From contig CALLUG010000002.1 of the NCBI GenBank assembly GCA_938011315.1, forward strand, positions 1 through 64,000: DNA of 64,000 nucleotides, read 5' to 3'. The DNA is from an uncultured Flavobacteriaceae bacterium. GTDB taxonomy: Bacteria; Bacteroidota; Bacteroidia; Flavobacteriales; Flavobacteriaceae. Under the pieces are notes generated by a model, which was given only the letters and a program-made list of their open reading frames with translations, was not told the origin of the DNA and searched no databases. Positions 9,974 through 21,780 of the stretch are shown piece by piece; the stretch's first letter is position 1, and each line of letters starts with the position of its first letter. A program made the position numbers and the translations under genes.

Positions 9974-10003
9974 TTGAAAATTAAAAATTGATACGTACAT
10001 TTG
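9974..10003 (+). promoter_or_regulatory. trp operon promoter
   Basis: TTG (9974-9976) and TACATTTG (9996-10003) are 19 bases apart, an excellent match to the Bacteroidota consensus. Transcription would start a few bases later, just before the leader-peptide ATG at 10019. Confidence 0.78.
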
Positions 10004-10018
10004 TATTAATATAAAAAT

Positions 10019-10081
10019 ATGGTTACAATCTTAAATACAATATGGTGGTGCAGTACTCGTAAAGCAAAATTCGTGGACTAA
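10019..10081 (+). CDS. trpL: trp leader peptide with tandem tryptophan codons
   Basis: This is a 20-residue frame, MVTILNTIWWCSTRKAKFVD, with two adjacent TGG codons at 10043-10048. Tryptophan is rare, so two in a row in a tiny frame between a trp promoter and a terminator hairpin is the classic sign of ribosome-mediated attenuation. A ribosome stalled on these codons would leave tcgtggac (10071-10078) free to pair with the attenuator. The frame is too short for ordinary gene finding. No gene-level experimental evidence is available to me for this organism. Confidence 0.8.
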   Translation: MVTILNTIWWCSTRKAKFVD

Positions 10082-10110
10082 CTCTTATTGTATGTTAAAA
10101 CAAAATACTA

Positions 10111-10142
10111 AGGCTTGTCATTCACGACAAGCTTTTTTTTTA
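10111..10142 (+). terminator. trp attenuator (intrinsic terminator)
   Basis: The stem is aggcttgtc (10111-10119) paired with gacaagctt (10126-10134), with loop attcac, followed by a run of T ending at 10141. It lies 30 bases after the leader stop and 14 before trpE. The leader segment 10071-10078 (tcgtggac) can pair with cacga (10123-10127) and gtc (10117-10119) across a three-base bulge. That pairing would break the terminator and acts as a candidate antiterminator. Confidence 0.82.
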
Positions 10143-10155
10143 TCAAAAATCGAAA

Positions 10156-11556
10156 ATGAAAATATTTAACTTAAAGACAAATTACAAAAAGATACTGTCG
10201 GATACCATAACTCCTGTTAGTATTTACCTAAAAATAAGAGATAAATATCCTAATAGTATTCTGCTAGAAAGTAGCGACTATCATGCTAGCGATAATACGT
10301 TTTCTTATATTTGTTGTAACCCTATTGCTTCTATAACGGTAGAAAACGAAACCATTAAACAAACTTTCCCAGACAAAAGCAGCACACTTAGCACAATACA
10401 AAACCCCCAAGATGTAGTACAGCAATTGCACTTGTTCACAAAACGGTTTGAGGTAGACGCAAACCCATTTAAGTTTATTAACAACGGTATTTTTGGCTAC
10501 ACGGCTTATGATGCTGTACGTTATTTTGAAGACGTTACTGTTACTAAAAAACAAGACGATATTAAAATACCTGATGTGTATTATGCGGTTTACAAAAATA
10601 TTATAGCTATAAATCATTTTAAAAATGAAGCTTATATTTTTTCACACTCCTACGAGTGTCAATCTAATATAGATGCTATTTATGAACTTATAAAAGTAAA
10701 ACAGTTTGCATCTTACGAGTTTGTAACCAATGGAGAAATAACATCAAACCTAACAGATAATGAATATAAAAAGCAGGTAGAACTTGCAAAAAAACACTGT
10801 GCTAGAGGCGATGTGTTTCAATTGGTTTTATCCAAAAAGTTTATGCAAGCGTTTAAAGGTGACGAATTTAATGTGTACCGTGCCTTACGCAGTATCAATC
10901 CATCACCGTATTTATTTTATTTCGATTATGGCCATTTTAAGATATTTGGTAGCTCTCCAGAAGCACAGCTTATAGTAAATGATGGTCAAGCAGAAATTCA
11001 TCCTATAGCAGGAACATTTAAGCGCACAGGTAATGATCTGCAAGATGCCGAATTAGCAAAACAACTCGCCACAGACGAAAAAGAAAATGCAGAACACGTT
11101 ATGTTAGTAGACTTAGCTAGAAACGACTTAAGTCGCAATGCAAACGAGGTTACTGTAAATACTTATCGGGAAGTTCAGTTCTTTTCGCATGTCATCCATT
11201 TAGTAAGTAAAGTTACGGGCAGGAAACATAGTAAAGTCCCTACGCTACAAGTCGTTGCAGACACGTTTCCTGCAGGGACTCTAAGTGGAGCACCAAAGCA
11301 TAGAGCTATGCAACTCATAGAACAGTACGAAAAAACAAATCGTGGGTTTTATGGCGGAGCTATTGGTTTTATGGATTTTAAAGGCAACTTTAACCACGCC
11401 ATCATGATTAGAACATTTTTAAGCAAAAACCATAAACTACACTGGCAAGCAGGTGCAGGGATAGTTTCCAAATCTAATCCAAAAAGTGAATTGCAAGAAG
11501 TGTACAACAAATTAGGAGCACTAACAAAAGCTATAGACTTAGCTAAAGCTATTTAA
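10156..11556 (+). CDS. trpE: Anthranilate synthase component I
   Basis: TrpE converts chorismate to anthranilate using ammonia supplied by TrpG; it is the first committed step to tryptophan. The protein has 466 residues, full length. The N-terminal LLESSD motif is part of the tryptophan feedback site. The catalytic half contains HPIAGTFKRTG, DEKENAEHVMLVDLARNDL and FPAGTLSGAPKHRAM, all chorismate-binding signatures. It is the first structural gene of the trp operon, 14 bases after the attenuator, and is followed by trpG after five bases. Confidence 0.97.
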   Translation: MKIFNLKTNYKKILSDTITPVSIYLKIRDKYPNSILLESSDYHASDNTFSYICCNPIASITVENETIKQTFPDKSSTLSTIQNPQDVVQQLHLFTKRFEVDANPFKFINNGIFGYTAYDAVRYFEDVTVTKKQDDIKIPDVYYAVYKNIIAINHFKNEAYIFSHSYECQSNIDAIYELIKVKQFASYEFVTNGEITSNLTDNEYKKQVELAKKHCARGDVFQLVLSKKFMQAFKGDEFNVYRALRSINPSPYLFYFDYGHFKIFGSSPEAQLIVNDGQAEIHPIAGTFKRTGNDLQDAELAKQLATDEKENAEHVMLVDLARNDLSRNANEVTVNTYREVQFFSHVIHLVSKVTGRKHSKVPTLQVVADTFPAGTLSGAPKHRAMQLIEQYEKTNRGFYGGAIGFMDFKGNFNHAIMIRTFLSKNHKLHWQAGAGIVSKSNPKSELQEVYNKLGALTKAIDLAKAI

Positions 11557-11561
11557 AAATT

Positions 11562-12125
11562 ATGAAAATATTAGTTATCGATAATTATGACAGTTTTACC
11601 TATAACCTCGTACATTACCTAGAAGATTTGAATTGTGAAGTTACCGTAAAACGAAACGATAAGTTAACTCTAAACGAAGTTAATGCGTTTAACAAAATAT
11701 TACTATCGCCAGGACCAGGGATTCCTAACGAGGCAGGTTTATTAAAAGATATTATAAAGCATTATGCACCTAACAAAAGTATTTTAGGCGTGTGCCTAGG
11801 ACAACAAGCCATTGCCGAAGTTTTTGGAGCGACACTTATTAACCTAGATGAGGTTTATCACGGCGTAGCAACCCCTATAACTATTGCGGTCAATAACGAA
11901 TCGTTGTACAATGGCTTAGACAAAACATTGCAAGTAGGACGCTACCACTCTTGGGTTGTTAACAGCAATTTGCCTGATGTACTCGAGGCAACATCGTTTG
12001 ATGATCATGGGCAAGTTATGTCGCTAAGGCATAAAAAGTACGATGTAAGAGCAGTGCAATACCATCCAGAATCTGTGCTAACACCACAAGGAAAACAAAT
12101 ATTAAGTAATTGGATTAAAGATTAA
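11562..12125 (+). CDS. trpG: Anthranilate synthase component II (glutamine amidotransferase)
   Basis: This is a 187-residue class I glutamine amidotransferase that supplies ammonia to TrpE. The oxyanion strand LLSPGPGIP, the nucleophile-elbow cysteine in GVCLGQQAIAE, and the His-Glu pair in VQYHPESVLTPQG form the catalytic triad. It follows trpE by five bases, so the subunits are made together. The same family also serves as PabA; position inside trp makes TrpG the main role, though it could serve both. Confidence 0.96.
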   Translation: MKILVIDNYDSFTYNLVHYLEDLNCEVTVKRNDKLTLNEVNAFNKILLSPGPGIPNEAGLLKDIIKHYAPNKSILGVCLGQQAIAEVFGATLINLDEVYHGVATPITIAVNNESLYNGLDKTLQVGRYHSWVVNSNLPDVLEATSFDDHGQVMSLRHKKYDVRAVQYHPESVLTPQGKQILSNWIKD

Positions 12126-12162
12126 TACGCAAACCTCTTTTTGTTTTTAAAGACAATTAATT

Positions 12163-13155
12163 ATGAAACAGCTACTAAATAGACTTATAAACCACGAAAG
12201 CATTTCTAGTAACGAAGCCGAGCAAGTACTAATAAGCATCTCTAAAGGAGATTATAATGAGAGTCAAATTGCCTCGTTTTTAACCGTTTTTATGATGCGT
12301 AGTATCACCATAGAAGAGCTTAAAGGCTTTAGAGATGCACTGTTACAACTTTGTATTTCTGTAAACTTACAAGAATTTAACGCTATCGATTTGTGTGGTA
12401 CAGGAGGTGACGGTAAAGATACGTTTAATATATCTACACTAGCCTCGTTTGTAACTGCTGGCGCAGGCGTTAATGTTTGTAAGCATGGTAATTATGGAGT
12501 ATCCTCTGCTTGTGGATCTTCTAATGTTATGGAGTACTTAGGCATTGCATTTTCAAACAATGAGGATAAGCTAAAACAAGCCATTACAGAAGCAGGGATT
12601 TGTGTTTTGCACGCTCCGTTATTTCACCCTGCAATGAAACACGTGGCGCCAATACGACGAGCTTTAGGCATAAAAACATTTTTTAATATGCTAGGGCCTA
12701 TGGTAAATCCTTCATTTCCAAAACATCAAATTGTAGGTGTCTTTAATTTAGAGTTACTGCGCTTATACGGTTATTTATATCAAAACACAGATAAAAATTA
12801 TACTATTATACACGCTTTGGATGGCTATGACGAAATTTCACTTACAGGGCGTACCAAAATAATTACCAACCAATCAGAAACAGTTTTAGACCCTACAGAT
12901 CTAAAGGTAAATCAAGTTAGCCCAAAATCTATTTTTGGAGGACATACTGTCAAGGAGGCTGCAAGTATATTCCTAAATATCATTAGCGGTAAGGGGACAG
13001 AAGCACAAAACAATGTTGTTTGCGCAAATGCAGGACTTGCCATTGCAACTTCAAAACAAATTAGCCACCTAGAAGGGTTTGAACTAGCAAAACAATCGTT
13101 ACATTCTGGAATGGCAAAACGCAGTTTAAATCGCTTAATCGCATTGAGTAAATAA
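12163..13155 (+). CDS. trpD: Anthranilate phosphoribosyltransferase
   Basis: TrpD transfers phosphoribose from PRPP to anthranilate. The protein has 330 residues. The PRPP-binding glycine loop is DLCGTGGDGKDTFNIST, and the KHGNYGVSSACGSSNVMEYLG segment follows. The metal-binding DE pair appears in LDGYDEISLTG. It is unfused to TrpG and lies 37 bases downstream of it in the operon. Confidence 0.97.
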   Translation: MKQLLNRLINHESISSNEAEQVLISISKGDYNESQIASFLTVFMMRSITIEELKGFRDALLQLCISVNLQEFNAIDLCGTGGDGKDTFNISTLASFVTAGAGVNVCKHGNYGVSSACGSSNVMEYLGIAFSNNEDKLKQAITEAGICVLHAPLFHPAMKHVAPIRRALGIKTFFNMLGPMVNPSFPKHQIVGVFNLELLRLYGYLYQNTDKNYTIIHALDGYDEISLTGRTKIITNQSETVLDPTDLKVNQVSPKSIFGGHTVKEAASIFLNIISGKGTEAQNNVVCANAGLAIATSKQISHLEGFELAKQSLHSGMAKRSLNRLIALSK

Positions 13156-13189
13156 TGTATAACAGTTCCTATTATTGACACCTATACCT

Positions 13190-13993
13190 ATGACTATTTT
13201 AGATAAAATTGTAGCTGATAAATATCAAGAAATTGCACTAAAGAAAGCGTTAATTCCCACATCGCAACTAGAGCAATCTGTGCTGTTTGGTCGTTCTACA
13301 GTAGCATTGTCCAAAGCCTTAAAAAATAGTACCACTGGTATTATTGCCGAGCATAAACGCAGATCTCCATCAAAATCAATAATAAACCAAAATCTTAACG
13401 TTCAAGACGTTGCAAAAGCTTACTACAATGCAGGAGGATCTGGAATGTCTATACTAACCGATAGTAAATATTTTGGAGGGTCTCTAGACGATTTGTTAAT
13501 TGCTAGAGCTAGCAGCCCACTACCTTTATTACGCAAAGAGTTTATTATAGACGAATATCAAATTTTAGAAGCTAAAGCCTACGGGGCAGATGTTGTATTA
13601 CTTATTGCAGCCATTTTAAAACAAAGCGAAATCAAACAATTGTCGGAATTTGCTAAACGCTTAGGCTTAGAGGTGCTCCTAGAAGTTCATAACGAAGAAG
13701 AACTGCATAAATCCATAATGCCATCGTTGGATATGATAGGCGTTAATAATAGAAATTTAAAAACCTTTAATGTGGATATAAGTAATAGTAAAAATTTGAG
13801 TCAACTTATCCCTAACGATTTTGTAAAGGTTTCTGAAAGCGGAATTTCTGAAACCAAAACAATCAAGACATTACAAACTTATGGCTATCAAGGATTTTTA
13901 ATAGGAGAAACTTTTATGAAAACCGACACTATAGAAGAAACTACAACGCAATTCATAGCCGAGATCAATAAAACTCAACGTAATAAACTATAA
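13190..13993 (+). CDS. trpC: Indole-3-glycerol phosphate synthase
   Basis: TrpC closes the indole ring on carboxyphenylaminodeoxyribulose phosphate. The protein has 267 residues from the ATG at 13190; a TTG five codons earlier (13175) is less likely. The (beta/alpha)8 barrel motifs are present: the N-terminal LDKIVADKYQEIALKKA, the catalytic-lysine region IIAEHKRRSPSKSII, LLRKEFIIDEYQI and VSESGIS. It is followed by trpF two bases later, so the pair is separate rather than fused as in E. coli. Confidence 0.96.
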   Translation: MTILDKIVADKYQEIALKKALIPTSQLEQSVLFGRSTVALSKALKNSTTGIIAEHKRRSPSKSIINQNLNVQDVAKAYYNAGGSGMSILTDSKYFGGSLDDLLIARASSPLPLLRKEFIIDEYQILEAKAYGADVVLLIAAILKQSEIKQLSEFAKRLGLEVLLEVHNEEELHKSIMPSLDMIGVNNRNLKTFNVDISNSKNLSQLIPNDFVKVSESGISETKTIKTLQTYGYQGFLIGETFMKTDTIEETTTQFIAEINKTQRNKL

Positions 13994-13995
13994 CT

Positions 13996-14661
13996 ATGAA
14001 GTTGAAAATTTGCGGAATGAAATACCAAGATAATATTGATGAGATTGTAGCGCTACAACCCGATTATTTGGGATTAATTTTTTATGATAAATCCCCACGA
14101 TATTTAGATACAACTCTAACAGCGTTACCTACAAACATAAAAAAAACAGGTGTCTTTGTCAACGCTTCTATTAGCGAAATTATAGAGAAAATAATTCAAT
14201 ATCAATTACAAGCTGTACAGCTACATGGTAAAGAATCGGTAGAGTTTTGTTTAAAATTACGAGAAGCTTATGAGCAAGAAAAAATGATAATTTCAAAAGA
14301 AAAAACGAATGCTTTAGAACTTATTAAAGCCTTTTCAATACACAAGGATTTTAACTTTTCACTTTTAGAACCTTATCAAGAAAATTGTGATTATTTTTTG
14401 TTCGATACTAAAGGTAGCTATGCAGGCGGCAACGGATACACATTTAATTGGAATCTTCTCAAAAAATATTCATTTACAACACCTTACTTTTTGAGTGGAG
14501 GCATAGGTCTCGACGAAATTCAGCAACTACAACATTTTATGAATAGTCCAGAAGCAAAATACTGTTATGCTATAGATGTTAATAGTAAATTTGAAACCAA
14601 AGCAGGCTGGAAAAGTATAACAGCATTAACAACATTTAAAAAGCGTTTGGCTTTAAAGTAG
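13996..14661 (+). CDS. trpF: Phosphoribosylanthranilate isomerase
   Basis: TrpF performs the Amadori rearrangement between the TrpD and TrpC steps. The protein has 221 residues. It begins with the catalytic-cysteine motif MKLKICGMKYQDNI, and has VQLHGKE, the catalytic Asp in FLFDTKGSYAGGNG and the phosphate-binding FLSGGIG. It is translated almost directly after trpC. Confidence 0.95.
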   Translation: MKLKICGMKYQDNIDEIVALQPDYLGLIFYDKSPRYLDTTLTALPTNIKKTGVFVNASISEIIEKIIQYQLQAVQLHGKESVEFCLKLREAYEQEKMIISKEKTNALELIKAFSIHKDFNFSLLEPYQENCDYFLFDTKGSYAGGNGYTFNWNLLKKYSFTTPYFLSGGIGLDEIQQLQHFMNSPEAKYCYAIDVNSKFETKAGWKSITALTTFKKRLALK

Positions 14662-14708
14662 TAACTAAATCGTAGTAACACCAAATAAAATATAGAATAC
14701 AACACATT

Positions 14709-15890
14709 ATGAGTTATAATATTAATGATAAAGGATATTACGGAGAGTTTGGAGGTGCATATATTCCAGAAATGCTATATCCCAATGTTGAGGAGTTGAA
14801 AGATAACTACCTGAAAATTATGTCAGAACCTTCTTTTCAAAAAGAATTTAAATCACTCCTAAAAGATTATGTAGGTCGCCCCTCCCCATTATATTTTGCA
14901 AAGCGTTTATCTAAACAATACAACACAAAAATTTACCTAAAACGTGAAGACTTAAATCATACAGGCGCTCATAAAGTAAACAATACAATTGGTCAAATAC
15001 TTATGGCTAAACGCCTAAACAAAACGCGTATTATAGCAGAAACAGGCGCAGGACAACACGGTGTTGCAACAGCTACGGTTTGTGCATTAATGGGATTACA
15101 ATGTGTAATATATATGGGCGAGGTAGATATTGCTAGACAAGCTCCAAATGTAGCACGCATGGCACTATTAGGAGCGACTGTAATTCCGGCAACATCAGGG
15201 AGTAAAACTCTTAAAGATGCTACCAATGAGGCTATAAGAGATTGGATTAACAACCCTGAAGATACCCATTATATTATTGGTAGTGTGGTAGGGCCACATC
15301 CTTATCCAGATATGGTAGCACGTTTTCAAGCAATAGTTTCAGAAGAAATTGCGTGGCAACTTCAAGAAAAAGAACATAAAAACACTCCAGACTATGTTAT
15401 TGCTTGTGTTGGAGGAGGAAGCAATGCCGCAGGAGCCTTTTATCATTTTTTAGATCATACAGAAGTAAATTTAATTGCTGTTGAAGCTGCAGGTAAAGGT
15501 GTCCAATCTGGAAAAAGTGCTGCCACCTCTATTTTAGGAAAACAAGGTATTATTCATGGAAGTAAAACCTTGTTAATGCAAACTAACGACGGACAAATTA
15601 CCGAACCTTACTCCATTTCGGCAGGGTTAGATTATCCTGGAGTTGGACCAATGCACGCTAATTTATACGCCACAAAACGTGCCGAATTTATAGCTATAAC
15701 AGACCAAGAAGCTATGGATGCAGGTTTAGAATTATCAAAAACAGAAGGAATTATTCCTGCCATTGAAACCTCACACGCCTTAGCCGTTTTTAAACGCAAA
15801 TCGTTTAGCCCAAACGACATTGTAGTTATCAACTTATCTGGTCGTGGCGATAAAGATTTAGCAACTTATATCGACCATTTTAATCTATAA
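14709..15890 (+). CDS. trpB: Tryptophan synthase beta chain
   Basis: TrpB joins indole with serine using PLP. The protein has 393 residues, standard TrpB1 length. The N-terminal [15 protein letters not shown] motif, the PLP-lysine in [13 protein letters not shown], the phosphate-binding [13 protein letters not shown] and the C-terminal [11 protein letters not shown] are all present. It works as an alpha2beta2 complex with TrpA, encoded 42 bases downstream. The gene order trpE-G-D-C-F-B-A is the usual one in Bacteroidota. Confidence 0.97.
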
Positions 15891-15932
15891 GCTTTATCAA
15901 ATTAAATATACAATAGTGCTTTATATACCATT

Positions 15933-16697
15933 ATGAATAGAATTAATAGCAAGTTACAAGAGAACAAAAAACTCTTATCTATATATTTTACAGCAGGATA
16001 TCCTAAGCTTAACGATACAACGTCTGTACTAAAAGCACTAGAAAGTAGTGGTGTTGATATGGTTGAAATAGGTTTACCTTTTAGCGATCCTCTAGCAGAT
16101 GGTCCCACAATACAAGCGAGTTCTACACAAGCATTACGTAACGGAATGAACTCTACATTACTTTTTGAGCAACTTAAAGATATTCGATACACTGTAAATA
16201 TCCCCTTAGTTATTATGGGATATTTTAACCCAATATTACAGTTTGGCGTAGAAGCATTTTGTAAGCAATGTAAGGCTGTAGGTATCGACGGATTAATTAT
16301 CCCCGATCTTCCTGTTGATGTTTACAACGAAAAATACAAATCAACTTTTGAACAATATGACTTAATTAATATTTTTTTAATTACCCCTCAAACCCCTGTA
16401 AGTCGTATAAAATTTATCGACTCTATCTCTAAAGGGTTTATATATATGGTAAGTTCGGCAAGTGTTACTGGAGGTAAAAACGAATTTACTACTACACAAA
16501 CAGATTATTTTAAACGTGTTGCAAATATGAACCTTAATAGCCCTCTAATAGTAGGTTTTGGAATTTCGAATAATCATACTTTTTCACAAGCCACTCAGCA
16601 TACTAAAGGTGCTATTATAGGCAGTGCTTTTATAAAACAGATTACAAAAAAAGGAATTAATACCGTTAATGACTTTGTAAAACAAATACGATCTTAA
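15933..16697 (+). CDS. trpA: Tryptophan synthase alpha chain
   Basis: TrpA cleaves indole-3-glycerol phosphate and channels indole to TrpB. The protein has 254 residues. Catalytic Glu and Asp lie in MVEIGLPFSDPLADGP; further motifs are QASSTQALRNG, the flexible loop YMVSSASVTGG and the phosphate site VGFGIS...GAIIGSAF. The next gene starts two bases after its stop. Confidence 0.96.
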   Translation: MNRINSKLQENKKLLSIYFTAGYPKLNDTTSVLKALESSGVDMVEIGLPFSDPLADGPTIQASSTQALRNGMNSTLLFEQLKDIRYTVNIPLVIMGYFNPILQFGVEAFCKQCKAVGIDGLIIPDLPVDVYNEKYKSTFEQYDLINIFLITPQTPVSRIKFIDSISKGFIYMVSSASVTGGKNEFTTTQTDYFKRVANMNLNSPLIVGFGISNNHTFSQATQHTKGAIIGSAFIKQITKKGINTVNDFVKQIRS

Positions 16698-16699
16698 TT

Positions 16700-17317
16700 A
16701 TGAAATATATTTTAGTATTAATCACAATTATTAGCTATGCTTGTTCTGCTCAAGTTGAAATAGATAATATCACTAAAGCACCAAAGGTTAGCAATATAGA
16801 TCGACCTTTAGCTAATGTTTACAAACCACTTGACGGCACCTGGAAAGGAACATTTTTAGTAAAAGAAGACGCAAATCCTAAACCTATTAATACTGTTGGT
16901 AACTTAAAAAGTCCAAAAACGATGCGTTTGTTTATTGAAGCTTCTAAAACGGTCAATACTATTAATGTTACACAAGTTTACGAGTCTGAGAGCCCTTATT
17001 TTCAGCGTGTATCTATTACTGATAATTATCCCGATACAGGAAAAACAGAGCAAAGTGTAGGAGTAAACAAAGTACAGAATGGCAAAATGTGGTGTGTGGT
17101 ACACAAGCCTAATGATACGGTAATTCATGAAGGTAGTATTCCGAATAAAACGACTATTATTTGGCAAAGCAGCCAAAAATCGCCTCTTAAAGTAGAATAC
17201 TTTTATGAAATAGTTACTGATGCTTATTACGAAATTATAGGCTATGGGTATTACAATAACGACGACATTAATTTAAGCCCAAAATTATGGTTTTATGGTA
17301 AATACAAACGGCAGTGA
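16700..17317 (+). CDS. Exported protein of unknown function at the end of the trp operon
   Basis: The protein has 205 residues with signal peptide MKYILVLITIISYACSAQ. The mature part has one recognisable feature, LDGTWKGTF near residue 47, resembling the first strand of lipocalin-like or DUF1579-type barrels. The rest alternates short beta-like segments (VYESESPYFQRVSITDNYP, YEIIGYGYY). No catalytic motif is visible. It starts two bases after trpA, so it should be co-transcribed and come under trp attenuation. Whether it is functionally tied to tryptophan or merely a passenger cannot be decided from sequence. No clear terminator separates it from trpA. Confidence 0.78.
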   Translation: MKYILVLITIISYACSAQVEIDNITKAPKVSNIDRPLANVYKPLDGTWKGTFLVKEDANPKPINTVGNLKSPKTMRLFIEASKTVNTINVTQVYESESPYFQRVSITDNYPDTGKTEQSVGVNKVQNGKMWCVVHKPNDTVIHEGSIPNKTTIIWQSSQKSPLKVEYFYEIVTDAYYEIIGYGYYNNDDINLSPKLWFYGKYKRQ

Positions 17318-17541: not shown

Positions 17542-20500
17542 TTACTTTTTAATTATTCTTTTTTGAATTTTATTTCCATTCTCATCAGTAAGATTAAGGA
17601 AGTAAATTCCAGCTGGAAGCCCAGTTAAATTAGCTAAAGGGTCTTTACTATTCGCAATGTGTTGTAAATTACTAAAAATTACACGTCCGTACACATCGGT
17701 CATATTTCCACTCATATTTAATGGTTCAGTACCATCTTCAAAATTTTCTATAAGCATTATAACATCGTTGGTTGGATTTGGATAAACAGATAATGCTTCA
17801 TCTAATGTACTTAAAACTCTGTTACTTTCAAAACCAAATGATATGCTACGAGTAGCCAATACGTTACCTCTAGACCTAACGGAAGCTGTTAGCGTATTAG
17901 TTCCTTGTATAAAATTGCTCACAGGACTAAAATTATTATTATCGTTATCTCCGCCTAAAGTGTAAGGAGCGCCTCTATCTACTCTAAAGTTGTTATTTCC
18001 ATTGAAATTAAAAGCTACAGCTCCAATTCTAGGAATACCATCTATTTCGGCAATTATTGTAGGTCTTACGCCAGCCCTAGTTCTTATAACATCACCATCT
18101 ACAAGCTCTCTAATAATAGTATTATTACGTGCATTCGCTAAGAAATAAGTAATTGGACTTCTTGGAACAAAATTAAATGTAACATTACGTTCCCCTAATT
18201 GTCTTCCTGCTGAATCGTCTCTAGCAAAAGCAGTAGCTGTAACAGTGTTTGATCCTTCCTGTAAGGGAGCAGCAAAAAAATCAGATTCAAAATCTCCAGC
18301 CACAGTAAATGGTGCTGCATTTTCTGTTCTAAAGTCTTCGTTTCCATTTAGCCCAAATCTTACACTTCCAATTCTACCTTGAAACTCTACAGAAACATTA
18401 AATTCTGTGCCTCTAGGAAAGTCTGACGCATCGACAGTCGTTCCATTTTCTAAAGCTCCTATTACTTCATTTGTTGTTGCGTTTATTAAAAAGAAATTAA
18501 CAGGTCGCGGAATAAAATTAAATGCAATATCTCTTCTTCCTAGTTGTCTCCCTCTTGCGTCGTCTCTAGCAAAAGCTGTAGCAACGATATTGTTTAGTCC
18601 TTCTTGTAAGGGAGCAGCAAAAAAATCAGATTCAAAATCTCCAGCTACAGTAAATGGTGCTGCATTTTCTGTTCTAAAGTCTTCATTTCCATTTAATTCA
18701 AAATTTACACTTCCAATTCTACCTTGAAATTCTACAGAGACACTAAATTCTGTCCCTCTAGGAAAATCTGATGCATCAACAGTTTCACCATTTTCTAGAG
18801 CTCCTATTACCTCATTTGTTGTTGCATTTATTAAAAAGAAATTAACAGGGCGTGGAATAAAATTAAAATTCACACTAGTTTGGTCTAATTGTCTTCCTCT
18901 GGCATCATCTCTACGAAAAGCTGTTGCAACAACAGTATTTAAACCTTCTTGTAAAGGGGCTTCAAAAAAATTAGATTCAAAATCTCCAGCCAAAGTATAA
19001 GGTGTTGAGTTTTCTATTCTAAAATCCTCATTATCATTTAACTGAAATCTAACACTCTCTACACTTCCACCAAACTCTGCTATGATATTAAACTCGGTGC
19101 CTCTAGGAAATTCACGGGCATCAATAGTTGCTCCTTCTTCTAAGGTACCAATTACTTCATTGGTTGTAGCATTTACAAGTAGAAAATTAGAGTTTGGTTG
19201 CTCTTCTAAAACGGTTATAGTAGACACTAACTCTATTTGATTACCAGTAAGCGTATTAAAAAGAATAGGTACTTCGTAAACTCCTGGTATTGCAATATCA
19301 AAATCAAAAACAAAAGGAATGTCCATAGATCCATCTGCTGGGGCTTCATAAAAATCAGAAATAACATCGGTTCTTACTCTTGGTACTCCACTAAATTCGA
19401 TATCGCTTATAGCTCTAATTACGTAAGCATCGTTTACAAACTCAAATGGAAGTCGATTAAAAAGGTTTCCCGGCAAACTTGCTGCAGCGGCATAAGTATT
19501 AGGCCGTATATTAGTTTCATCAATAGATGAGTCTCCACCTTGTGGGAAATCCAAAGCTTCAGGAAACCTATAGGTTACCCAAAAATGTTCTCCTTTTGTA
19601 AATTTAATAAATTCAGGCAATCTTGTTGTTACGGTATCTCCAAAAAAGTCTTCAACTATTTGTGAATCGCGAATAGTCATCAATAGCTCAGCGTCGTCTG
19701 GGGTGTTTCCACCTCTAAGAATTTGTATTGTAGTTACTGGCAGTACTACACCAGCGGTAAAGTAGAAATTACTTACTGCAGTAAGTAAAAATTCATCATC
19801 TTCTACGTCAAATCGTACAGCGCTAGTTATAACAGCAGCTGCACCTATGTTTAAGAGTCGAATATCATCTCTGTTTCCACTATCATAGGCTATAGAATCT
19901 CTAGGTGGTACTGGCACAGCAGGATCTCCTACACGCTCTACTAGGCCGATTTCTACACGCCCGACTACATTCAAATCACTGATATTTTCTACAGTCACAG
20001 TTCTCGTTACACTAGTTTCGTTAGGGTCTTGTATGTACGTAAGCTCTTCTATAAGTTCTGAATTCCGCACTGCTACAAATGGTATTGAATTTACTGTAAA
20101 CGATATAGGTAACTCAAGTGATGGGTTTCTTTCATCATTAGAGTTTATTACAACAGCGCCTTCATAAGTTCCAGGAAGTACTCCCATAGTACTAAAACTT
20201 ATCTCAAAATTTTCTGAAGAAACTGGGGCAATTTGGCCCGAATTGATAGAAAAACTTAAACCTTCTGAAAGCACATCAACATCTCTTCCTATTACATCAA
20301 TTTGGTAGTTTAGAGTCTCTAGACCAGTATTTTCTAAGTCAAAACGCCCTGATACAATTTGTTCTTGATTAAAAGTACCAGAAAAAGAAGATTGGCTAGA
20401 AACAACTCTAGGACCGGAAACATTACTTACTCTAATGTTTAAAGTTAGTTCTACAACATCATCAGGAAATTCTTCTGATGATACGAATACTCTTTCTGTA

Positions 20501-21780
20501 AAATTACCTACGGAAACTCCTACACTAGACAATTCAACTTCTATTTCTTGTCTCTCTCCCACTCCTAACATAAAGTTATTAGTGCTAAAACCAGTGACTA
20601 AGGTATTGCTGTCTGCACTTGTTAAGGTTACATTAATTGGATCTCCTGAAAAATCTGTTCTAATTATAGTTGCAGAAACTGTATTTTCTGTGTTTCTTGG
20701 TAGAGGATTTATATTTATTTCTGTTTCTAGCAAATCAACAAAAGCTCTATTTTGAGAAAGCTGCCAGCCCATATCTGCAAAAATTGCTCTAGCAAGAGGG
20801 CCAATATCCAAAAGAGATTCTCCTGGAGCACCATTAGGAGTCATTAAAGCATTTGGGTCACCTTCAGGGTATTCTTGCTCATCAAGGTGACTAAGACTAG
20901 ATCCAGGAGAGAAAGTAGTAGGGGCAAATATTCTAGGTAATCCATCATCACTTATTTGAGAAGCAATTTCAGCAAATGGTCCTGTAGCAAAAAGATTATT
21001 ACTTATAAAAGTTCTGCCCAGCTCAGCAGATTCGTTTGGAAGTTCAACTATTCTATCCCCATCACCTGTAATCAGGGCAACATCAAATATACTAGGGTTA
21101 CCATCTAGGTTAAGGTCTCCGATACCAGACGTTCCTACAAATCCAGTACTAAAAAAACCAAGACCATGTGCTATCTCATGAATAACTGTACCGACAAAGT
21201 CAAATGAATTTGGATCAATATTACCACTTGTACTAAAATCCCAATTAACATTTGAACCCATCAAAACAAAAACATCTAGTCTATCTGGCACAGGGTCTAA
21301 ATTTACTCTTGCAAGCTGATTTGCCAAAGCTATAGGATAACCCACATCTTGTAGTGGTGCGTTTGGAAAATTTTCAATAAGAAAACCTGGTCCTGCTGCT
21401 GCTAATGCACCAGGGCCCAAGTCTGTAAAATCTGCATTTATTATAATTGGTACTGTAGTAATAAACTCTCTAGACCAAACATCGACGGCGAATTGAAAGG
21501 CTTCACGTGCTGCATCGTTTGACAGAAAATCACCAGTAAAATTTACGCTAATATCTGCTGTAGGCGGGGTTGTTCTAAACTTACTTCTCATCTGTTCCAT
21601 TTTTAAACTACGGGTAGTCGATGCCACAGATTTGGTGCCTGCATAACAAACAGTTGGTTTTACAGGTGTTTTTTTCATCTGTTTTTGTGCGCTAACTGTA
21701 AATAGTCCAAATAGCAAAAAAAATAGATAAAGCTTAATACTTAATAATTTGTTTTTTGTGTTAAAATAATTTTTTATCAT
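17542..21780 (-). CDS. Large secreted protein with metalloprotease-like domain, tandem repeats and T9SS sorting domain
   Basis: The protein has 1,412 residues. Signal peptide (residues 1-31), then a zinc-protease-like region: HEIAHGLGFF at about 201-210, later SLSHLDE and NALMTP, then GPLARAIFADMGW. The far third histidine and the LMTP turn resemble M8-type metzincins. Residues about 440-560 resemble HYDIN-like Ig modules. Next come four repeats of about 115 residues, three of them very similar (FFLINATTNEVIGALENG, then DFPRGTEF). The last 90 residues (LSVYPNPTNDV to KRIIKK) are a type A T9SS sorting domain, so the protein is exported through the outer membrane and probably cell-attached. Substrate unknown; adhesion or proteolysis are both possible. 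Confidence 0.85.
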   Translation of the reverse strand: MIKNYFNTKNKLLSIKLYLFFLLFGLFTVSAQKQMKKTPVKPTVCYAGTKSVASTTRSLKMEQMRSKFRTTPPTADISVNFTGDFLSNDAAREAFQFAVDVWSREFITTVPIIINADFTDLGPGALAAAGPGFLIENFPNAPLQDVGYPIALANQLARVNLDPVPDRLDVFVLMGSNVNWDFSTSGNIDPNSFDFVGTVIHEIAHGLGFFSTGFVGTSGIGDLNLDGNPSIFDVALITGDGDRIVELPNESAELGRTFISNNLFATGPFAEIASQISDDGLPRIFAPTTFSPGSSLSHLDEQEYPEGDPNALMTPNGAPGESLLDIGPLARAIFADMGWQLSQNRAFVDLLETEININPLPRNTENTVSATIIRTDFSGDPINVTLTSADSNTLVTGFSTNNFMLGVGERQEIEVELSSVGVSVGNFTERVFVSSEEFPDDVVELTLNIRVSNVSGPRVVSSQSSFSGTFNQEQIVSGRFDLENTGLETLNYQIDVIGRDVDVLSEGLSFSINSGQIAPVSSENFEISFSTMGVLPGTYEGAVVINSNDERNPSLELPISFTVNSIPFVAVRNSELIEELTYIQDPNETSVTRTVTVENISDLNVVGRVEIGLVERVGDPAVPVPPRDSIAYDSGNRDDIRLLNIGAAAVITSAVRFDVEDDEFLLTAVSNFYFTAGVVLPVTTIQILRGGNTPDDAELLMTIRDSQIVEDFFGDTVTTRLPEFIKFTKGEHFWVTYRFPEALDFPQGGDSSIDETNIRPNTYAAAASLPGNLFNRLPFEFVNDAYVIRAISDIEFSGVPRVRTDVISDFYEAPADGSMDIPFVFDFDIAIPGVYEVPILFNTLTGNQIELVSTITVLEEQPNSNFLLVNATTNEVIGTLEEGATIDAREFPRGTEFNIIAEFGGSVESVRFQLNDNEDFRIENSTPYTLAGDFESNFFEAPLQEGLNTVVATAFRRDDARGRQLDQTSVNFNFIPRPVNFFLINATTNEVIGALENGETVDASDFPRGTEFSVSVEFQGRIGSVNFELNGNEDFRTENAAPFTVAGDFESDFFAAPLQEGLNNIVATAFARDDARGRQLGRRDIAFNFIPRPVNFFLINATTNEVIGALENGTTVDASDFPRGTEFNVSVEFQGRIGSVRFGLNGNEDFRTENAAPFTVAGDFESDFFAAPLQEGSNTVTATAFARDDSAGRQLGERNVTFNFVPRSPITYFLANARNNTIIRELVDGDVIRTRAGVRPTIIAEIDGIPRIGAVAFNFNGNNNFRVDRGAPYTLGGDNDNNNFSPVSNFIQGTNTLTASVRSRGNVLATRSISFGFESNRVLSTLDEALSVYPNPTNDVIMLIENFEDGTEPLNMSGNMTDVYGRVIFSNLQHIANSKDPLANLTGLPAGIYFLNLTDENGNKIQKRIIKK
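17827..19192 (-). repeat. Four tandem coding repeats of about 345 bases
   Basis: Within the 1,412-residue gene, repeat units lie at about 18848-19192 (first in protein order), 18503-18847, 18158-18502 and about 17827-18157. The middle two are nearly identical in DNA over long stretches: for example ggagcagcaaaaaaatcaga occurs in both with the same flanks. The fourth is strongly diverged. Unit length is 115 codons. Confidence 0.85.

Follow-up and report, generated by a model that had tools for sequence, protein, structure and literature searches.

A probable ribosome-mediated attenuator of the Bacteroid-trp family before the trp operon of an uncultured Flavobacteriaceae bacterium

The trp operon in the window (the whole stretch of DNA that was analysed, 64,000 nt from an uncultured Flavobacteriaceae bacterium) is very probably controlled by a ribosome-mediated transcription attenuator of the Bacteroid-trp family. 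The locus is an ordinary member of this known family. Added here, from sequence comparison, are support for an antiterminator that is absent from the Rfam model and indications of a range beyond that model's detection. We lean towards a joint reading, in which the trp attenuator would be an old feature of the Bacteroidia, much wider than the Rfam model detects, and its antiterminator would have been re-aimed in evolution (Flavobacteriaceae and probable Bacteroidales using the terminator loop with the top of the 3' arm, other lineages the 5' arm with the loop), with the flavobacterial his and phe operons following the same plan. The gain concerns the model of the Bacteroid-trp family: because the antiterminator missing from it is now supported by matched lineage differences, the mechanism can be tested by point changes on two named strands. 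Many leaders built on this plan escape RF01692, so that annotation undercounts such control in Bacteroidia.

Results and Discussion

Organisation of the trp leader in the window

The first of the seven trp genes in the window is trpE (ATG 10156). The operon and the elements upstream of it are as follows, with gene names inferred from Pfam families.

9974..10003 (+), probable promoter: TTG at 9974-9976, a 19-nt spacer and TACATTTG at 9996-10003
9999..10119 (+), match to Rfam RF01692, Bacteroid-trp (cmscan 52.6 bits, gathering cut-off 49, model positions 1-131 of 131)
10019..10081 (+), leader peptide ORF MVTILNTIWWCSTRKAKFVD, 20 codons (ATG 10019-10021, stop TAA 10079-10081), read from the sequence and from relatives
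10031..10052 (+), region 1 of the 1:2 leader hairpin (minimum-energy fold and own-versus-swapped tests)
10043..10048 (+), two adjacent Trp codons (TGG TGG), the putative sensing site, conserved in relatives
10071..10077 (+), antiterminator strand UCGUGGA (UCGUGA in most relatives), placed by its pairing and by its spacing in relatives
10074..10098 (+), region 2 of the 1:2 leader hairpin (same evidence as region 1)
10083..10087 (+), 5' strand of a second antiterminator helix, whose 3' strand, 10109-10113, lies at the foot of the terminator 5' arm (predicted fold only)
10110..10141 (+), intrinsic terminator, 10110-10119 with 10126-10135, and a T run to 10141 (terminator scan, folding and relatives)
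10121..10127 (+), antiterminator partner UUCACGA, made of the terminator loop and the first two bases of the 3' arm (folding and relatives)
10156..16697 (+), trpE, trpG, trpD, trpC, trpF, trpB and trpA, taken to be the regulated operon (ORFs and Pfam)

A preliminary description of this DNA had reported a 20-residue leader with two adjacent Trp codons and a T-tailed hairpin 14 bases before trpE, and both were found as described. The terminator stem extends to 10 bp, including one G.U, and it is the end of the T run that lies 14 bases before the trpE ATG. The hairpin has a folding energy of -12.8 kcal/mol, versus a mean of -1.96 in shuffled sequences, and none of 200 shuffles folded equally well or better. 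The terminator scan returned two sites (both strands of this one hairpin), against 0.1 expected, and no second exact copy of the terminator word was found in the genome itself.

The same description had proposed a consensus promoter. As a sigma-70 promoter this did not hold, the scan being at chance level (2 sites found versus 2.5 expected). The segment 9974-10003 fits instead a Bacteroidetes-type promoter, with the consensus TTG-N19-TAnnTTTG; by raw count, 69 of 71 flavobacterial loci had the element TAnnTTTG within the 60 nt before the leader.

At 10049-10051, where most relatives have a third Trp codon, the window has a Cys codon. Replacement of TGG by a Cys codon (TGC or TGT) inside the Trp run was also seen in L008, L135 and L149, that is, in several lineages.

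A 205-aa ORF without Pfam match (16700-17317, + strand) starts directly after trpA; it is likely part of the trp transcript and so under the attenuator. Convergent to the operon is a gene for a 1412-aa protein (17542-21780, - strand) with a C-terminal sorting domain, Ig-like repeats and a putative HExxH motif, spotted by eye. For F. psychrophilum, a protease gene is described as likely co-transcribed with trp (PMC6414381).

Membership in the Bacteroid-trp family

The RF01692 match stands before the trp operon, and the nearest relatives of its trpE, among the matches listed, are flavobacterial. The family is characterised by a short ORF containing at least two Trp codons, and the window has two adjacent TGG. 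In the alignment to the model, 10 positions of the window are flagged as non-standard pairs. Phe_leader, STnc50 and BYDV_5_UTR, which also matched this region at E values up to 1, were far below their Rfam cut-offs and were discarded.

Only RF01692 and two tRNAs reached Rfam cut-offs in the window; the enterobacterial trp leader family and T-box were absent from the cut-off matches. This bears on direct sensing of the signal by the leader RNA, without ribosome, through a T-box, a riboswitch or a TRAP-like protein. Such leaders also use alternative terminator and antiterminator folds. Against this, RF01692 was the only regulatory-RNA family at cut-off, and a translated ORF with Trp codons and a fixed stop placement would be left without a role, so that direct sensing is scarcely conceivable here.

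The antiterminator and the 1:2 hairpin

The leader segment tcgtggac had been proposed to pair with gtc and cacga of the terminator region across a three-base bulge. The complementarity is indeed present, and the bulge is not needed, because the helix can be continuous: 10071-10077 pairs with 10121-10127, with a single G10076.U10122. This register, returned by the folding program, fits better and replaces the bulged pairing. The predicted antiterminator also occupies the 5' arm of the terminator through the second helix. Antiterminator and terminator share bases 10110-10113 and 10126-10127, so only one of them can form. The earlier claim that pairing of the leader segment would break the terminator stem is thus upheld by the shared bases, as it is by the swap tests across lineages (below), and is weak in the window alone.

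When the window is judged by itself, the leader ORF and the terminator are the only features to stand out. Shuffled sequences gave an antiterminator duplex as good in 13 of 100 cases and a 1:2 duplex as good in 23 of 100, neither being significant. The whole leader fold had z = -1.76, with 10 of 200 shuffles as good. The 1:2 hairpin is part of the minimum-energy fold of the window, yet it has to be read with those shuffles and with the 10 non-standard positions. All three structures had weaker energies in the window than the mean of the relatives: -9.0 versus -13.3 kcal/mol for the antiterminator duplex, -8.5 versus -10.2 for the 1:2 duplex and -12.3 versus -15.5 for the terminator. The attenuator of the window may be a modest working copy, or a copy under relaxed selection.

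Conservation among named flavobacterial relatives

Named trpE loci were taken as the best 80 of at least 581 confirmed matches, of which 77 had a complete upstream region (L063 and L066 had none, and L005 begins inside the leader). A leader with tandem Trp codons was present in all 77, as the proposed check on these codons anticipated. It lay at most 520 nt from trpE in 74 of them and further upstream in L047, L050 and L056. The terminator was visible in 76 of the 77; the remaining locus, L043, has N at that place.

In L047, L050 and L056, a frame with a GIY-YIG nuclease domain (PF01541; E values 1.3e-17, 1.9e-17 and 2.3e-14, respectively) is placed between the trp terminator and trpE, and may therefore share the attenuator.

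The window and 73 loci sharing the flavobacterial terminator word formed a set of 74 sequences. In 70 of these 74 leaders the Trp run is three codons long. The antiterminator strand (TCGTGA or a near variant) lies 18 or 19 nt past the last Trp codon in 69 cases, and the range for all 74 is 17-22 nt. The stop codon of the leader starts between -7 and +8 nt from this strand, again in 74 of 74, so that a terminating ribosome should cover it. For a typical ribosome footprint, this spacing agrees with the geometry first proposed, in which a ribosome stalled at the Trp codons leaves the strand free and one at the stop codon covers it.

The stop codon is not in a constant register relative to the antiterminator word: it falls inside TCG-TGA in 38 leaders, 8 nt after the word start in 24 and before the word in 12. 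The reading frame across this RNA word differs between leaders, and it is therefore the RNA, not the peptide, that is conserved. These data also address a TnaC-like arrest peptide, which would sense free tryptophan as a nascent chain and stall its own ribosome. In its favour are the Trp residues of the leader and the fact that close relatives are somewhat alike at the N-terminus. A peptide conserved beyond the Trp residues up to the stop was looked for and not found: the C-terminal residues and the stop register vary while the RNA complementarity is the fixed part, and runs of three Trp codons fit the sensing of codons. Arrest of this kind is extremely improbable, and codon sensing by a translating ribosome is the reading retained.

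On the other side of the helix, the terminator loop together with the upper end of the 3' arm mostly has the sequence TCACGA, complementary to TCGTGA. In the window, where the word is TCGTGG, the pair is kept through the G.U, and in L059 both sides are changed (TCGTGT with ACACGG). The fifth base pair of the helix was G-C in 105 of 105 flavobacterial rows (with one identical core, L088 = L021). A covariation check had been suggested for both hairpins, and its outcome was mixed. For the terminator, pairs were formed in 99.5% of 740 cells, and three pairs were changed on both sides. For the antiterminator within Flavobacteriaceae, 93.0% of 512 cells were paired versus 92.3% in shuffles (11/500), and the number of cells changed on both sides, which 103 of 500 shuffles reached, was near shuffle level. 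The antiterminator is too invariant within this family for covariation to show; its matched differences are seen between lineages.

Leaders missed by the Rfam model

RF01692 matched 141 of 199 genomes of the family of the window, 123 of them above cut-off. Of the 58 family genomes with no match, 20 were examined; 14 had a TrpE of at least 51% identity, 13 of these with a readable upstream region. A tandem-Trp leader followed by a terminator was present in 12 of the 13 trpE loci, none of which has an Rfam match at cut-off. The exception is L187, where trpE is present and the tandem-Trp leader absent. Several of these relatives have strands that differ and still match one another: UCGCGA with UCGCGA in L182, GCGAG with CUCGC in L186, and GGAUUCAG with CUGAAUCC in L184.

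Across the class, RF01692 matched only 7 of 149 genomes (strict filters). A search of 40 of these by TrpE gave 16 loci of at least 49% identity, each from another family, and 15 with readable upstream. Reading by eye found, in 13 of the 15, a short ORF with at least two Trp codons, either next to each other or in the form W-x-W; L138 and L149 have one Trp codon each. No Rfam match reached the cut-off in these 15 loci, nor in L079-L081.

A further group, set B, comprises families f33 and f57, which are probably Bacteroidales. Its leader word is mostly GUCGUAAG or GUCGUGAG, and the fifth base of the helix, over 18 rows, is A-U in 10, G.U in 4, G-C in 3 and unpaired in 1. Rows L125 and L126, which had been set on the opposite strand, do not enter the counts. 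Relatives that keep the trp genes with neither the Trp codons nor pairing changes, which the preliminary description had named as evidence against attenuation, were thus largely not encountered, the exceptions being L187 (no leader), L138 and L149 (one Trp codon).

Matched differences between lineages

If the two strands co-evolve, pairing should be better between a leader and its own terminator than between that leader and the terminator of another genome. Four sets of loci were used for this swap test:

Set F, 71 of the 74 flavobacterial loci (L016, L058 and L062 left out)
Set B, 16 of 20 (L120, L125, L126 and L128 left out)
Set C, 16 of 18 (left out were L138, with no Trp pair, and L146, where a WWW leader is visible and no terminator was placed)
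Set D, 12 of 14 Rfam-negative relatives (L175, without upstream region, and L187, without leader, left out)

For the antiterminator, the mean energy of own pairs in set C was -14.8 versus -11.2 for permuted pairs, and none of 2000 permutations reached the own value; the permutations treat genomes as independent, and set C has nearly one genome per family, unlike the other sets. The corresponding values were -12.1 versus -10.2 for set D (7 of 2000 permutations) and -16.2 versus -14.2 for set B (1 of 2000). When sets C, D and B were pooled with the window (45 loci), own pairs averaged -14.5 versus -11.2, with 0 of 2000 permutations reaching this, and the own pair beat the median swap in 41 of 45 loci. 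In other families both strands differ, and own strands still pair better than swapped ones. For set F, the result was not significant (55 of 500 permutations). With a 24-nt leader segment, sets B (821 of 2000) and F (99 of 500) were not significant, and set C kept its signal (0 of 2000).

Swapping the strands of the 1:2 hairpin gave 0 of 2000 permutations reaching own in C, 6 of 2000 in D, 0 of 2000 in B and 0 of 500 in F. Locus by locus, a 1:2 duplex that no more than 5 of 100 shuffled sequences equalled was seen in only 5 of 16 loci of set C, 15 of 71 of F and 7 of 16 of B; for the antiterminator duplex the counts were 12 of 16, 61 of 71 and 8 of 16, respectively.

Proposed mechanism and folding order

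The observed parts, their conservation, the matched differences between lineages and the predicted folds point to the following scheme, in which ribosome stalling and footprints, the response to tryptophan and the order of events in time are inferred. With charged tRNA-Trp in good supply, the ribosome on the leader would reach the stop codon at 10079 and cover 10071-10077; the antiterminator strand would then be hidden, hairpin 10110-10135 would form, and transcription would end ahead of trpE. Under a shortage of charged tRNA-Trp, the ribosome would stall at 10043-10048, break the 1:2 leader hairpin and leave the RNA free from about 10060. The free RNA would pair 10071-10077 with 10121-10127 and 10083-10087 with 10109-10113, occupying both sides of the terminator, and the polymerase would enter trpEGDCFBA. 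Without any ribosome, the 1:2 hairpin and the terminator would form together.

Stepwise folding was simulated for these situations. With RNA free from 10062, as in a stall, the antiterminator was the best fold at 10126-10130, and the terminator won once 10132 was reached. A ribosome at the stop codon, represented by RNA free from 10095, allowed the terminator alone. In the ribosome-free case, the full-length RNA had both the 1:2 hairpin and the terminator, and the antiterminator was briefly best at 10127. Because the terminator wins at equilibrium even in the simulated stall, the switch in the window must depend on folding order rather than on final stability.

That the terminator is the most stable end state, and that the antiterminator of the window is weak and not significant alone, is also what one would see if an unregulated or partial terminator merely followed an incidental short ORF. 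Such a terminator would leave unexplained the tandem Trp codons found in every one of the 77 named loci (from the best 80 of at least 581), the fixed spacing and the matched strand differences across lineages, and we regard it as very unlikely. Ribosome-mediated trp attenuation, as first proposed, is the best reading, with Trp run and complementarity kept in relatives and compensating differences between lineages.

In predicted stalled-state folds of set C, the terminator bases taken up by the antiterminator average 8.6 in the 5' arm, 3.1 in the loop and 0.6 among the first four positions of the 3' arm. The means for the same three parts are 6.4, 4.4 and 2.4 in set F, and 7.9, 2.8 and 3.2 in set B. 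In these predictions the lineages differ in where the antiterminator is aimed, though not absolutely.

Relation to known leaders

The window resembles Bacteroid-trp RF01692 in its position, its leader ORF with tandem Trp codons and, as far as the predicted fold goes, its 1:2 hairpin. It differs in having two Trp codons rather than three, and the Rfam model has neither the terminator 3' arm nor the antiterminator, because it ends at GGCUUGUC.

With the E. coli trp leader it shares its logic: a tandem-Trp leader peptide, a predicted 1:2 hairpin, an antiterminator and a terminator that exclude each other, and a stop codon placed near the antiterminator strand. In E. coli, the partner of region 2 is the 5' arm of the terminator. 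Here, in contrast, the conserved antiterminator helix lies on the terminator loop and the start of the 3' arm, and it is the second, predicted helix that lies on the 5' arm.

The claim that this mechanism stands out in the phylum was too strong. Bacteroid-trp is listed in Table 1 of Weinberg et al. 2010 as present in Bacteroidetes, with 'y' for RNA and for cis-regulatory (PMC2864571), and has been a named Rfam family since that year. Rochat et al. 2019 reported a Bacteroid-trp RNA before the F. psychrophilum trp operon (PMC6414381). The antiterminator may also have been described earlier, for example by Lopatovskaya 2010. In the portions of the literature searched, we recognised no experimental test of the tryptophan response of this attenuator.

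Leaders before hisG and pheA

Strong clues for leader-peptide attenuation before amino-acid operons of Flavobacterium psychrophilum were given in 2021 (PMC9723704), with structured elements upstream of pheA and hisG that had no Rfam matches. They resemble the present element in their position before amino-acid operons, and no antiterminator model was found in the passages of that paper that were consulted.

At nine hisG loci of relatives (L165-L173), a short upstream ORF has three or more adjacent His codons in eight (not L168), with a T-tailed hairpin seen by eye. In some of them the leader end complements the hairpin, as in L167 (CTCAAGCG with CGTTTGAG, by eye). At nine pheA loci (L204-L212), a Phe-rich leader ORF precedes a T run in seven (not L204 and L211), and complementary strands were seen by eye, for example in L209 (CGAGACTTTC with GAAAGTCTCG). 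No Rfam leader family matched the hisG and pheA loci of these relatives.

The genome of the window itself (98.7% complete) had no match to HisG (PF01634) or to prephenate dehydratase (PF00800), and a genome of the same genus, G059, has matches to both. The bacterium, which retains trp, may be auxotrophic for His and Phe.
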